Shown in pieces: positions 205 to 18,412 of a stretch of DNA of 22,023 nt. Source of the DNA: a virus; IMG/VR virus record IMGVR_UViG_3300042114_000014, positions 1 through 22,023 of that record. One strand, given 5' to 3'. The position numbers were made by a program, and so were the translations under genes. Under the pieces are notes generated by a model. The model was not told the DNA's origin. It saw nothing but the letters and a program-made list of their open reading frames with translations, and made no database searches. The stretch's first letter is position 1. Each line of letters begins with the position of its first letter.

Positions 205-651
205 TTAACTTTTGAACAATCCCAGTTGTTTCAACAGCGCCATAGCTTGTTCTTGTGTAACGCCTTCTGGCAGTTCGACACCACCAAGTTTTACGGCATC
301 AACTCTCTCCACTTTCCCATTTCCAGATCTTTTACCAGCATTCCATTTTCCAACTACCAGTCGGCTGTTTAAGTCAGCCAACCATGTAACAGCTTCAGAA
401 ACAGTTGTGACATCTTTTTCTTCTGTCGTGCATGCCAGTTCATCGCCGAACTTTTGACTCAGGCCATGCAACAGTGCCTGTGTTTGTATTGCATCTGAAA
501 AGTCGTCGGCCGAGATAGTGAAGGTTTCAATGATTCTGCCAGTTTCCGTCTTTTCACCCTTCACCTTTGACAATACTTCCACAAAGTCAATGGTGATTGT
601 TTGGGCTTCTACGTTAACAGTTTTACTGATTTTCACGTTTGAAAGTTTCAT
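205..651 (-). CDS. Leftward phage protein of unknown function, 148 aa
   Basis: This is the only gene on the minus strand I can support. The start ATG at 651 is preceded by AGGGAG about ten bases upstream, a good ribosome binding site. The 148-residue product is soluble with no membrane segment. Its N-terminal half looks beta-rich (residues 1-50, alternating hydrophobics in VEAQTITIDFVEVL). Its middle is helical and includes a KWNAGKRSGNGK basic stretch near residues 102-113. A short C-terminal helix contains EGVTQEQAMALLKQLGLF. I do not recognise a family. Its divergent orientation from the late genes and the leftward sigma-54-like sites upstream suggest an early or middle gene. It is bracketed by 27-bp inverted repeats at 155-181 and 698-724, so it could be a small inserted cassette. 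Confidence 0.75.
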   Translation of the reverse strand: MKLSNVKISKTVNVEAQTITIDFVEVLSKVKGEKTETGRIIETFTISADDFSDAIQTQALLHGLSQKFGDELACTTEEKDVTTVSEAVTWLADLNSRLVVGKWNAGKRSGNGKVERVDAVKLGGVELPEGVTQEQAMALLKQLGLFKS

Positions 652-697
652 GGTTCTTTTCTCCCTTTTGGTTGAGGTTTTATTGCCATACCAAAAC

Positions 698-724
698 CTG
701 AAAGGGATAACAAAGCTCAGGTTT
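698..724 (+). repeat. Right arm of the 27-bp inverted repeat
   Basis: This arm matches the reverse complement of 155-181 in 26 of 27 positions, with one transition. It also forms a hairpin by itself: AAACCTGA at 694-701 pairs with TCAGGTTT at 717-724 around a 15-base loop. It lies in the leader of the leftward gene, 45-75 bases before its start codon. A second overlapping pairing (GGTTTT 676-681 with AAAACC 693-698) would compete with it. In a leftward transcript the two arms could pair with each other and loop out the gene. Confidence 0.8.
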
Positions 725-864
725 ACTTTTATTCAGTTTTCAAAGACCTGCCGTTTCAATCCTTCGATGCGTCGGTGCCAGCGGTTTTCACCCTGTACAT
801 TTAACCAATGCCAGATTGTCGCGGATTCCAAAGAGCCATTTCTCATTCGTTACAACATACATAT

Positions 865-880
865 TGCAGGCATCATGCCA
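865..880 (-). promoter_or_regulatory. Sigma-54-like -24/-12 site, leftward, copy 1
   Basis: The minus strand reads TGGCATGATGCCTGCA. The GG and GC dinucleotides are separated by exactly ten bases, as in the sigma-54 consensus TGGCACG-N4-TTGCW. Transcription would start near 853 and run toward the gene starting at 651. The site is preceded by TTT like the other copies. Its internal inverted repeat is imperfect (GCATG against CCTGC). The promoter identity is inferred from spacing and repetition only. Confidence 0.45.
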
Positions 881-951
881 AAACCAGCTGGCGGGGACAA
901 AAAAAAATTTATTCAATAACTCCAACCAGTTACACAACCACCCAACCAACT

Positions 952-967
952 TGCATGAAGTGTGCCA
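952..967 (-). promoter_or_regulatory. Sigma-54-like -24/-12 site, leftward, copy 2
   Basis: The minus strand reads TGGCACACTTCATGCA. It has the GG-N10-GC spacing and the TGGCAC form closest to the classical -24 box. A run of T precedes it. It is the copy least like a palindrome (GCACA against CATGC), which argues that the promoter-like positions rather than the palindrome are what all copies share. Confidence 0.45.
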
Positions 968-1087
968 AAAACAACTTTGACAAAACTTACCACACTGCTT
1001 TGACACAAAACGTCAGCTAACCAAAACTCCAATGATATTGCACACTTACCACTGCCATTTATTGTCACACCCAGTGACAAACATTTA

Positions 1088-1103
1088 CACAAAAACCATG
1101 CCA
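1088..1103 (-). promoter_or_regulatory. Degenerate copy of the TGGCATG site
   Basis: The minus strand reads TGGCATGGTTTTTGTG. The first ten bases are identical to the site at 1118-1133, 30 bp to the right, but the -12 position is GT instead of GC and the palindrome is lost. It may be a decayed or weak half-site of the same family. Confidence 0.3.
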
Positions 1104-1117
1104 GTTCATCACGTCCC

Positions 1118-1133
1118 TGCATGAACCATGCCA
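1118..1133 (-). promoter_or_regulatory. Sigma-54-like -24/-12 site and perfect small palindrome, leftward, copy 3
   Basis: The minus strand reads TGGCATGGTTCATGCA with GG-N10-GC spacing. The inner bases GCATG-GTT-CATGC form a perfect 5-bp inverted repeat with a 3-base loop. The flanks resemble those of the copy at 1213-1228 (both continue GGG after TGCA). It could be a sigma-54 promoter, a repressor operator, or a hairpin promoter of the kind used by the N4 virion RNA polymerase. The sequence alone does not decide. Confidence 0.5.
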
Positions 1134-1181
1134 AACAGAACTCCATTAAAACCGAATCCAGCCATGTAACCAAACGCCTGT

Positions 1182-1197
1182 TGGCATAGCGTATGCA
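1182..1197 (+). promoter_or_regulatory. Sigma-54-like -24/-12 site and perfect small palindrome, rightward
   Basis: The plus strand reads TGGCATAGCGTATGCA, with the same GG-N10-GC spacing as the four leftward copies but the opposite direction. The inner GCATA-GCG-TATGC is a perfect 5-bp inverted repeat with a 3-base loop. As a promoter it would fire rightward from about 1209, through the C-rich tract toward the small terminase gene. It lies only 16 bp from the leftward copy at 1213-1228. Confidence 0.4.
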
Positions 1198-1212
1198 GTA
1201 ACTACATCGCCC

Positions 1213-1228
1213 TGCATGAGTCATGCCA
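1213..1228 (-). promoter_or_regulatory. Sigma-54-like -24/-12 site and perfect small palindrome, leftward, copy 4
   Basis: The minus strand reads TGGCATGACTCATGCA with GG-N10-GC spacing. GCATG-ACT-CATGC is a perfect 5-bp inverted repeat with a 3-base loop. It is the rightmost of the leftward set, whose starts are spaced 87, 166 and 95 bp apart. Transcription would run leftward through the other copies. Confidence 0.5.
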
Positions 1229-1672: not shown

Positions 1673-2158
1673 ATGATTCTGCAGAAGGAAGAGGCCGTGG
1701 GAAGAAATAAACTTCCATTCGACGAAATGGCGTATTTTGACATGGCCAGCGTCGGTATGACACAAAAAGATATAGCGCAAGAACTTGGTCTGTCTATTCC
1801 TACCCTTGAAAGGAATATCACAGAACTTTCTGCTGAGCAAGGTGTCATTCTTAAATACCGTGAACTGCAGAGTTTGCAGCTTACTAAGATACAGGCAAAA
1901 ATTCTAGACGCAATTACGCCGGATAAGATAGCAGAGGCATCCTTGCACGATCTGGTTGTAGCGTTTAAGGTACTGAAAGACAAAGAACTTGTAACTGACG
2001 GCAAGCCGAATGAGATACATGGTCTGGTTGGGTATTTGATTCAGCTGGAAAAGGCCGAGCTAGCAGCTAGTACAGCCGCCTTGGTACAGAAGAATGGTGT
2101 GCAAACAGTGGTTATTGACGGCGAAGAACTGGAAGTAGATGACATTCCTAACCTGTGA
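1673..2158 (+). CDS. Putative terminase small subunit (HTH DNA-binding protein), 161 aa
   Basis: The product is proposed to recognise the packaging site on phage DNA and hand it to the large terminase. A helix-turn-helix is visible near residues 28-50 (MTQKDIAQELGLSIPTLERN). A helical oligomerisation-type segment follows (residues about 60-140), and the acidic tail ends DGEELEVDDIPNL. Size and the HTH-plus-helical-core layout fit small terminases. I chose ATG 1673; the frame stays open to a TTG at 1655, but that lies in the predicted -10 box and neither start has a strong ribosome binding site. The stop overlaps the next gene's reading frame. The large terminase lies 8.5 kb downstream, which is unusual, so a late transcriptional regulator is the main alternative. 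Confidence 0.55.
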   Translation: MILQKEEAVGRNKLPFDEMAYFDMASVGMTQKDIAQELGLSIPTLERNITELSAEQGVILKYRELQSLQLTKIQAKILDAITPDKIAEASLHDLVVAFKVLKDKELVTDGKPNEIHGLVGYLIQLEKAELAASTAALVQKNGVQTVVIDGEELEVDDIPNL

Positions 2159-4827: not shown

Positions 4828-7800
4828 TGGCAACCCTTACCTCTGGAAATCATTATCTCGACGAAGGCACTGCTCGCACTGCTGGTGAGGCATGGACGAT
4901 CAACGGCCCCGGCACGTCGCTGACTGTGAGAACCGACACTCGCTGGCATTCTAACAGTCCAGCTTCAATGGCTGGCTCCCTCGGTTCCATTACTCTCACA
5001 GAAGGCCAGTGGAACATAGACGCAACGACTGTCAGGTGGCTGCCGATCAACGGTGGTTCTGGCGCATGCGCTGTTGGAACCACTGTCTCACAGGGCGGAG
5101 TATCTGGTTATTGTCTGGGCTATTGGGCAACCCTCGCATCTGCGCCCTCGACAACAGTAGGGGCAACAGGCTGGCTTAAATTCCGAGAGGTGTCTGGCGG
5201 TAATTTCGCATCAGGAGCTTTGACTGGTGTAACTGCCAGTGCAACAGGGCCGGATGTCACCGGCTGGATTGAGGTAGTTTGCGATCAGGCAGCAAATATC
5301 ACTGTGCCACGTCTGGGTAAATTCCAGACAAGGGGTGACTGGTTTTATCTGGACGATACCACTGGCTCAGTCGGGCAGGTTATGCAACTCCCCACAAACG
5401 GTGGCGGTGCTGGCACTACTCCTGTAGGGGCGTGGATTGAAACAGGTGTAGGCACAAATGAGTACGATCATTACCCTTCTCTGAACGGTGCCACGAACGG
5501 ATGGGCTTATCAGCATATCGGTATGCCTCCCGGACAGTCAGATGTACGGCAGCGGTTTGTAAAAGACATCGGCTCCGGTCAGATGCAGATCGGGGAGAAC
5601 GTATCCCTTACGGGTGCTACCTATGCAGGTACAGCAGCAACAACAGGGACGTATATAGAGCAGAATCAGGTGCTTTACTATGTTTGGTCGAACAATGAAG
5701 TAACTTTGTATGGTACTCATTACTATGAAACAGGCGAGTCTGTAGGGATAGATTTCCCCTCTGGTGGCCCTGCTGATGGAACGTACACCATTACAGATGT
5801 ACTTGGCTACCAGTGTTTCAAAGTCGCTGCAACAGGTTCAGGGCCGGGCAACTCTTGTACATGTAGAAGCAGGCTCTCTTTGACAGTAACTGCATCAACA
5901 ATCAACGTGGCCGATAACGTCTACTGTGATTTTACAACAGGTACAGGCGTGGATGGCTCGTTTGTAGTTAAAGGCTATAACACCACAAACAGTTGGGATA
6001 TCCACTACCCCAGAACAGCAGCATTAACCGTCGGTAACGTATCTGTGTACTACGGGATTACCGTTACTACAGCAGCGGTGCATAACTTACAGATCGGCCA
6101 CAGGGTAAAACTTACCTTTACATCTGGCACTGCAACCACTGGTAATTATACAGTAATAGCTATACCGACAACTTCTACTTTTGTTGTCAACGTACCTTTT
6201 AATAGCGGCACAGGCGGTAACTGTACGGTAGATTTCCAGCTTGGCTTTGTACCTGTTTCCGGCTGCAAAGTACGGGTGCCTAATATATTCCTGAGGCAAT
6301 GCACAACAGCAGCGAGAGCAAGCAACGCAACACCTCACGCTACTATCGCTTCTCGTCCTGAGTTTGTCACGACATCAGCCGGTGCTATTGATATTGAATA
6401 TACCTATGGGGATTGGTACTGGAACTTTGTTCAGCCCTACTCATTCAGCGCAAAGCATAACGCAATATCAGATACGTGTATTATTCAGGAGGTTGCAACA
6501 GCCCCTGTGGTTGATGATATGCTGGTGGGAATGTACGGGAGCTTGGACTTAGCAACTTTCACAGCCAGTACGTTATTGTCTGGTTGTACGTTTAGCAACA
6601 TTACGGCCATGCGAGGCAATACACCCGGAACTAACGACCACGCCATCAACATAAGCACCATTAACGGCGGTACATTTACCAACATAGCTGGTGGTATCAT
6701 CCAGTATGTACGCAGCTCCGGCTTGCCTATTTCTGTGTCTGCGTGTAACGAAACTACGTTTGATGGAATCACAGCTATAAATGGCACACTCAGTAGCGCT
6801 TACGGCCCAACATACATCTACAACGTAAATTACTGTGACAGGATGACAGGCTGGCAAGGCGGGGCTATCAACGCCATGTCTGCCGTCACATGGGGAAACA
6901 ACCCGAACGGCTCAATTCTTGATGGTTTGGCTTTCGGCTTTAACGGTACGATCCCGAATCAGATGCCGCATGGCTATATCGTGAATGGTAACGCCCAAAA
7001 TACAAGAGTTCGTAATATAGGAACTGCTGCTGCTCCACTACAAGGCCGATCCTCGTTCAGGCCTTACGCCTATGGTGTCACCAACTTGATAGTTGGTTCC
7101 GCCTTTCCGGGCTACAAAATCCAGCGAGTATATGTAGATCAGGCAAGTACGGCACCGATCTACTTATTAAACAGCCACATCGGTATGCTTGTAGAATCAG
7201 TGTTCACCGATCATTGGACTGCTGGCAGGGCGATACTGTACGGCTCGCCTGAGTCTATTAACCTGACTATGAAAGGCGTAGGTTGTGCTTACCTTTCTGG
7301 TAGTGGTGTTTCTGACTATGGTGTTCATTTTGTAGATTCTTTCCAGCGTAAAGAGGGGCAGTATGCACTAGTGATGCATGAGCCTACAGCAGCTACATCC
7401 TCCTACTATACAGTACTCTCAGGCAATCCACGCTTTAACTCTGCCGGTGGTATCGTTATGTATGTTGTTGGCGATTCTGCACAATGGGAAGATCAGTATT
7501 TTAGGAAAGGTCATACAGGATTCTTTAGTGGAACTGCGGCTCCTATCGCTTGGATGGATGGGGGATCTTATAACTATAATTACCTCGTGGAGTATCAGAT
7601 AGATAAAGGTACTGGCTTCAGTGGATGGAAGAACTTCAGCCGCGCCAAGCAGATTACCTGTAGCTCCGGTGCTTATACCGCAACAGTAGCTGATGCGACA
7701 GGTCTGGCTATTGGTGACTATGCCCAGTATTACTCATTCACCACGCAGCATATAGCGTTCGGTGCTAAGATTACGGACATAGTTGGTAATACGCTGACGT

Positions 7801-10680: not shown

Positions 10681-10686
10681 GTGCAA

Positions 10687-10710
10687 AATGTAAATAATCT
10701 ACATTTCTGG
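10687..10710 (+). promoter_or_regulatory. 24-bp palindromic element, copy 2, before the large terminase
   Basis: AATGTAAATAATCTACATT forms an AATGTA/TACATT inverted repeat and is followed by TCTGG. It is identical to the copy at 17736-17759 over all 24 bases, and both are preceded by AA and followed by GG. The element begins exactly 32 bp before the terminase ATG, the same distance as in copy 3. No conserved -35 box lies upstream. It fills most of the only gap (38 bases) between genes in this part of the operon, so it probably starts or controls the packaging/head unit. Confidence 0.75.
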
Positions 10711-10718
10711 GTGGCTAA

Positions 10719-17728: not shown

Positions 17729-17735
17729 AGTTTAA

Positions 17736-17759
17736 AATGTAAATAATCTACATTTCTGG
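17736..17759 (+). promoter_or_regulatory. 24-bp palindromic element, copy 3, before the tail genes
   Basis: This copy is identical to copy 2 over 24 bases (AATGTAAATAATCTACATT plus TCTGG). It begins exactly 32 bp before the ATG at 17768 and directly follows the UNCG hairpin. Together they mark a transcription-unit border between head and tail genes. The GGGGGA after it may serve as ribosome binding site. Candidates are a promoter of a phage RNA polymerase, a phage sigma or activator site, or an RNA hairpin controlling translation. Confidence 0.75.
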
Positions 17760-17767
17760 GGGATGTC

Positions 17768-18412
17768 ATGACGTACAGTGAGTTGGTTACAGAGACTATG
17801 AGTATGGTGCAGGACAGTAATAGGTACGAAGAAATACTCACGTATGTAAACATGGCTCTTGCTGAAGCTACAACTGAGGTTATGCTGCCGGAGTTTAAAT
17901 GCGCTGGTACTGTTAGTACTGCGGTAGACGCGCCGTTTGTAGCGCTACAGATTCAACCTGACAGATACGTGGCGGGTATTGTAAAGCTGTTCGGTGCGGC
18001 TATGGCTGATGTTAAAATTTACCTTTCGCTGGATGATATGATTGTTAGTGAAAGTATTGAGGATGTACTTACAACTGGCGACGCTGTTGTAGCTGTTGCT
18101 GTAGAGGGCAGTAATTTATGGTACTACCCAATACCAACAACACCAGTTACATTTGCATTCATTTACTATACAACGCATCCAAAGCTTGTTGATGTGTCTG
18201 ATAGTGTCACGTTATTTCCAGACTATATTCAACGTCTTGCCATTTGTGCTAAAGCAGCATCTATGTGTTTTGACAAAGTTGAGGATGGCGTAGACGGGGA
18301 GAAGGTAAACACAACTGCGTATGAGTTAAAAGGTAAAGAAGGTATTCAAAAACTGCATGAGTGGGTTGGTAAGAATAGGCGGCATTTCATTTCTAGTACG
18401 TGGGGTGAATAA
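17768..18412 (+). CDS. Putative head-tail adaptor protein, 214 aa
   Basis: ATG 17768 follows GGGGGA and the palindromic element. The N-terminus is helical (MTYSELVTETMSMVQDSNRYEEILTYVNMALAEA), a central beta region follows (about 40-130, with LWYYPIPTTPVTFAFIYYTTHP at about 118-139), and the C-terminus is helical again (LFPDYIQRLAICAKAASMCFDKVEDG...). Opening helices of this type, then beta, then a helical end with DYIxRLAI, are seen in phage adaptor proteins that bind under the portal (the P22 gp4 and SU10 adaptor groups). Place after the capsid genes fits. The stop overlaps the next ATG by one base. Confidence 0.6.
   Translation: MTYSELVTETMSMVQDSNRYEEILTYVNMALAEATTEVMLPEFKCAGTVSTAVDAPFVALQIQPDRYVAGIVKLFGAAMADVKIYLSLDDMIVSESIEDVLTTGDAVVAVAVEGSNLWYYPIPTTPVTFAFIYYTTHPKLVDVSDSVTLFPDYIQRLAICAKAASMCFDKVEDGVDGEKVNTTAYELKGKEGIQKLHEWVGKNRRHFISSTWGE

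Follow-up and report, generated by a model that had tools for sequence, protein, structure and literature searches.

Phages are generally taken to rely, for the start of transcription, on the housekeeping sigma factor or on factors of their own. In phage repressor or stoperator arrays, a single asymmetric site recurs several times within regulatory gaps. In bacteria, promoters that depend on RpoN (sigma-54) follow the -24/-12 consensus mrNrYTGGCACG-N4-TTGCWNNw, of which the Geobacter sulfurreducens promoter TTGGCACGGTTTTTGCT is an example (PMC2725144). The open-access literature yielded reports of host RpoN or phage-encoded factors only, and none of RpoN-type promoter arrays in phages. The RpoN elements themselves are of a known kind; as far as we could find, what is new is that phages use them, that they form arrays and that they are so widespread.

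The window analysed here covers the whole of a 22,023-base viral record that is itself a fragment of a phage, and all window coordinates refer to this whole stretch. Five exact matches to TTGGCAYRNNNNNTGCA (GG-N10-GC) lie at 865-1229, four leftward and one rightward, and a pattern scan of the whole window returned none elsewhere. The leftward sites are TTGGCATGATGCCTGCA at 865-881 (16-base form TGGCATGATGCCTGCA, 865-880), TTGGCACACTTCATGCA at 952-968 (TGGCACACTTCATGCA, 952-967), TTGGCATGGTTCATGCA at 1118-1134 (TGGCATGGTTCATGCA, 1118-1133) and TTGGCATGACTCATGCA at 1213-1229 (TGGCATGACTCATGCA, 1213-1228). The rightward site, TTGGCATAGCGTATGCA at 1181-1197 (TGGCATAGCGTATGCA, 1182-1197), faces a terS-like gene. 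A degenerate sixth site, TGGCATGGTTTTTGTG at 1088-1103 on the minus strand, was read directly and combines a good -24 half with a broken -12 half. Direct reading and the pattern scan agree with the first-pass annotation on the positions of all six, and on exactly ten bases between the GG at -24 and the GC at -12 in each of the five exact sites. An extra T precedes every exact site (TTGG), and TTGGCAYR and TGCA are present in all five. The sites thus resemble bacterial RpoN promoters in GG-N10-GC, TGGCAY-R and TGCA. They differ in that position -15 is A or C (ATGC or CTGC) and T in none of the five, where the RpoN consensus reads TTGC, and in that the phage sites head an early operon and form multi-copy arrays.

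The region 865-1300 has a strong strand skew, and one explanation is that the sites are a chance or compositional artefact of a C/A-rich intergenic strand. The bare GG-N10-GC skeleton fits such an account, being unenriched in the surrounding 1 kb (10 seen, shuffle mean 6.2, maximum 13). The signal is therefore the extended motif, which occurs five times in this region and in none of 300 dinucleotide shuffles. Conservation was then measured over 44 non-redundant regions upstream of terS (82 kb) picked without reference to the motif, the relatives having come from a terL scan (32 viral loci) and a TerS alignment (55). TGGCA-N7-TGCW was found 36 times against 1.45 expected from shuffles, or ~25-fold (28 times without the window and the relative L034), while nine other spacings between 3 and 12 gave 0-5 each. 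A control of 109 kb downstream of the terS start held 4. At positions that the pattern leaves free, 97% of the relatives' sites have Y directly after TGGCA and 94% have R at the position that follows, as RpoN promoters do. Both the enrichment over shuffles and the conservation in relatives implied by the earlier promoter reading are thus found, the former for the extended motif and the latter only at that spacing. As the source of the motif, chance is ruled out by the shuffles, and we give an artefact of this kind practically no credence. The conserved site is not universal, and many of the 44 regions are incomplete or lack it. One relative without RpoN-like sites, L018, has instead a repeat of 20 bp, AGTTACAAGATATGTTTGTT, at 7308-7438 in the gap upstream of terS.

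Similar tandem arrays, close to perfect in their RpoN consensus, occur in other viruses. A scan for two sites 4-34 bp apart returned at least 120 viral stretches, against a rough chance expectation of ~0.1, and these form at least 57 sequence clusters. Among the matches listed, -15 is T in 79% of array sites, the two-way position -20 is G in 67%, and the bases left free by the pattern agree with the published RpoN consensus (PMC2725144). Most loci among these matches have 2-8 sites, mostly tandem, 25-50 bp apart and sometimes convergent; 26 of 36 non-redundant arrays with callable neighbours sit between divergent genes, and five of 57 clusters fall within predicted genes, where they may represent coding repeats. 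In whole-record scans nearly all sites fall in one or a few intergenic places, and the reversed pattern never matched. At no fewer than 52 loci the gene behind the array is terS-like and is followed by an M15-like peptidase and terL (names read from the sequences), with the array facing the other operon. The uncultivated-virus arrays L054-L177 share with the window the motif and an intergenic position, commonly between divergent operons beside terS. They differ from it in belonging to other phage groups, in having mostly T at -15, 25-50 bp spacing and often more copies, and in that some face against neighbouring genes. A search of two regions gave no arrays in known phages. Helical phasing of the array spacing is suggestive in the redundant set and weak in the non-redundant set, and the last site of these arrays is no more AT-rich than the rest. 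Dyads were also considered as enhancers of the other phages' arrays; they are equally common upstream and downstream, and this idea is unsupported.

The sites could instead be an operator array for a phage or host repressor or activator, with the quasi-palindrome GCATR-NNN-YATGC resembling an RpoN element by coincidence. The A rather than T at -15 would suit an operator, as would the perfectly complementary arms in three of the five window cores, one of them reached by changes on both sides (GCATA...TATGC). The outer TTGG...A, however, is conserved and lacks symmetry, and among the relatives' sites T is the commonest base at -15 (47%), ahead of A (31%), with the two-fold symmetric core kept in a minority. 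Arrays with A at -15, as in the window, are rarer among other viruses (L034, L174, L175, L176), and two of them, L175 and L176, break the palindrome; the unconstrained positions again follow the RpoN consensus. The phage sites are like stoperator or repressor arrays in having several asymmetric copies in regulatory gaps, and differ from them in exact RpoN spacing and consensus and in that no repressor gene was found adjacent. Taken together, we regard an operator array as improbable.

The sites occupy a gap between divergent genes, as the first-pass annotation had it. On one side lies a leftward gene at 205-651 (minus strand, 148 aa) with no assigned function, for which family searches gave no convincing match. 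Its position corresponds to that of the first early-operon gene of relatives, with homology between the two not established. On the other side, a terS-like gene with helix-turn-helix matches (1673-2158, plus strand) starts the rightward structural module, and endolysin, terminase, portal and capsid genes lie to the right. Orthologues of this terS-like gene sit just upstream of terL in relatives. Two minus-strand ORFs within the gap, 788-1006 and 913-1224, were not selected by a codon-usage caller. Single-sequence scans gave no homologues of the leftward gene or TerS, the window DNA had no match among 50,697 phage records, and among isolated phages TerS had no match and the best terL match was 39.5% identical. 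The large terminase gene of the relative L034 (2794-5283, 829 aa) is apparently split by an in-frame intein-like insertion.

Several other repeats were noted in the window. Inverted repeats of 27 bp, 96% identical, lie at 155-181 and 698-724 on either side of the leftward gene and possibly mark an invertible or mobile segment or paired hairpins. A near-palindromic repeat, AAATGTAAATAATYTACATTTCTGG, at 1447-1476, 10685-10711 and 17733-17759, stands ~200 bp before terS, just upstream of terL and just upstream of a gene at 17768, and is a candidate phage late promoter or operator. Tandem repeats of GACTCCGTTTTACATA occupy 1341-1413, ~260-330 bp before terS and beside a C-rich stretch.

Arrays upstream of terS, both in the window lineage and at the 52 or more loci of another phage group, would also be expected of terminase-binding (pac/cosB-like) repeats for the adjacent TerS. 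Position speaks against such a role. The sites lie anywhere between about 640 and 1920 bp from terS, and their distance to the leftward gene is steadier. The dissimilar TerS proteins of the two groups would need a common site, and the arrays of large phages are spread over several intergenic gaps. We therefore consider terminase binding very unlikely.

The relatives suggest what the sites do. At 14 loci, the window among them, a leftward site has a predicted start 57-234 nt before the first leftward gene. The -11 to -1 stretch of these 14 conserved sites has a GC content of 0.17, as compared to 0.36 at other sites of the lineage (p=5e-5) and a background of 0.41. Most phages of the window's own lineage carry 1-3 sites, promoter-like in placing and orientation, and rightward sites occur as well (for example in L213, L225 and L231). 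In a near-complete relative, G072, the site comes first in a long series of co-directional genes, among them those for DNA polymerase A, a DNA-ligase-domain protein, a PD-(D/E)XK nuclease, an AAA protein and a DNA methylase. Within the window, site 865 has the AT-rich -11 to -1 stretch AATATGTATGT; the other four sites have no such stretch, and the sequence downstream of site 1118 is GC-richer. Site 865 would accordingly be the promoter-like copy, its predicted start near 854 lying ~203 nt before the leftward gene and leaving a predicted untranslated leader at 652-854 (minus strand) by the -12 rule.

Enhancer-like parts accompany the conserved site in relatives. Counting inverted repeats upstream of it identified TCGACA-N4-TGTCGA, which with at most one mismatch has 15 copies in terS-upstream regions and none downstream; other spacers from 0 to 9 give 0-1 each. 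When 2.9 million viral contigs were scanned, twice, for this dyad with a site 52-116 bp beyond it, 13 stretches were found, mostly of the window lineage. The ten distinct gaps between dyad and site (54, 58, 64, 74, 95, 95, 96, 105, 105 and 116 bp) share one helical phase at 10.5 bp (p=0.001; p=0.01 in a stricter set), and at least nine relatives have the phased upstream dyad. An IHF site between enhancer and promoter is frequent, though not universal, at RpoN promoters. Here IHF-like sequences fall within 100 bp of the site at 10 of 16 loci, where 4.1 would be expected, and lie between the dyad and the -24/-12 site; five are at -38 to -40. These dyad and IHF-like motifs came to light post hoc, in loci that are related to one another. 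The relatives thus add to the likeness to bacterial RpoN promoters an AT-rich start, an inverted repeat upstream that keeps to one face of the helix, and IHF-like sites, and judged by its parts the arrangement of dyad, bend site, -24/-12 element and AT-rich start is that of an enhancer-dependent RpoN promoter. Neither the TCGACA dyad nor a good IHF-like site was found in the window. It has another inverted repeat, TTGTCAC-N5-GTGACAA at 1062-1080, as a possible activator (enhancer) site, 94 bp upstream of site 952, as compared to 95-96 bp in some relatives. This dyad is perfect, is not significant alone and could have arisen by chance.

These data lead us to favor, with some confidence, a reading in which the sites are host RpoN -24/-12 elements and site 865 is an enhancer-dependent promoter of the leftward operon. 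RpoN binding, the host activator and transcription are what we infer from the sequence. Host RpoN polymerase would wait on site 865 as a closed complex until a host enhancer-binding protein on the upstream inverted repeat acts on it and starts transcription, with IHF-like bending aiding that protein. The leftward operon, which carries the replication genes in the near-complete relative, would then be driven from 865. The extra sites (952, 1118 and 1213 leftward, 1181 rightward) would be further, or weaker, RpoN sites; these may add to the local occupancy by RpoN, work in the other direction or hold RpoN. Initiation at RpoN promoters depends both on RpoN itself and on an activator that uses ATP, with starts roughly 12 nt past the GC. 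A further difference from bacterial RpoN promoters is that no activator was found with the sites. The array-bearing and lineage records searched contain neither activator (PF00158) nor RpoN (PF04552) genes, so host factors would be needed.

The first-pass annotation had read the sites as tandem promoters facing the leftward gene. The part of this that stands is a promoter-like leftward site, conserved in relatives and accompanied there by an enhancer-like dyad and IHF-like sites. The array part is probably too simple because relatives usually have a single promoter-like site, site 865 is the only AT-rich one in the window, the sites depart from the RpoN consensus at -15, and in some large phages such arrays point against the genes beside them.

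An alternative is an array of decoys, in which the sites bind free RpoN or RpoN polymerase without useful transcription, so that the phage genome, as it replicates, would soak up host RpoN and silence RpoN-dependent host genes. RpoN does not need core polymerase to bind promoter DNA (PMC2725144), and array-bearing records searched have no activator gene. Arrays have multiple copies close together (25-50 bp apart), some of them opposed or convergent; in L242 (8891-9009) three nearly identical convergent pairs of perfect sites recur every 43 bp with ~1 bp between partners. In several phages (among the large ones, G014, G015 and G032) the sites run against neighbouring genes that are themselves co-directional. 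The three sites of L034 lie downstream of its leftward gene, beside a terminator-like hairpin. Against decoys, the window lineage mostly has 1-3 promoter-like sites with an AT-rich start and a phased dyad, none of which a decoy needs. As the leading account of the window's sites we consider decoys unlikely; the opposed sites of G014, G015 and G032, the placement in L034 and the four window sites without an AT-rich stretch keep them a serious rival. The window sites differ from the consensus at -15 and come with only a candidate enhancer, and promoter and decoy roles may coexist. In two large phages (L238, 2560-3070; L241, 7960-14000), GTTATGTAAA lies 7-8 bp upstream of nearly every RpoN-like site; these sites face against the flanking genes, and in one of the two phages AAGTTTGTTAAA AT-rich repeats lie between them.

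Relatives keep one copy at the head of the early operon, and similar arrays are found in many unrelated viruses, so host RpoN may act as a switch for part of what these phages express. More broadly, and with rather less assurance than the reading of site 865, we suggest that RpoN-site arrays could be a general device of many unrelated phages. Their early expression would depend on host RpoN or titrate it, coupling infection to the nitrogen, motility or stress state of the host without encoding RpoN machinery. If so, a host signal-gated switch could decide when or whether the phage programme runs, or the phages would soak up RpoN. The sites would also be a host clue for these viruses, as their hosts should have rpoN. 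The relative L178, itself without sites, is carried by one metagenome bin that has rpoN.
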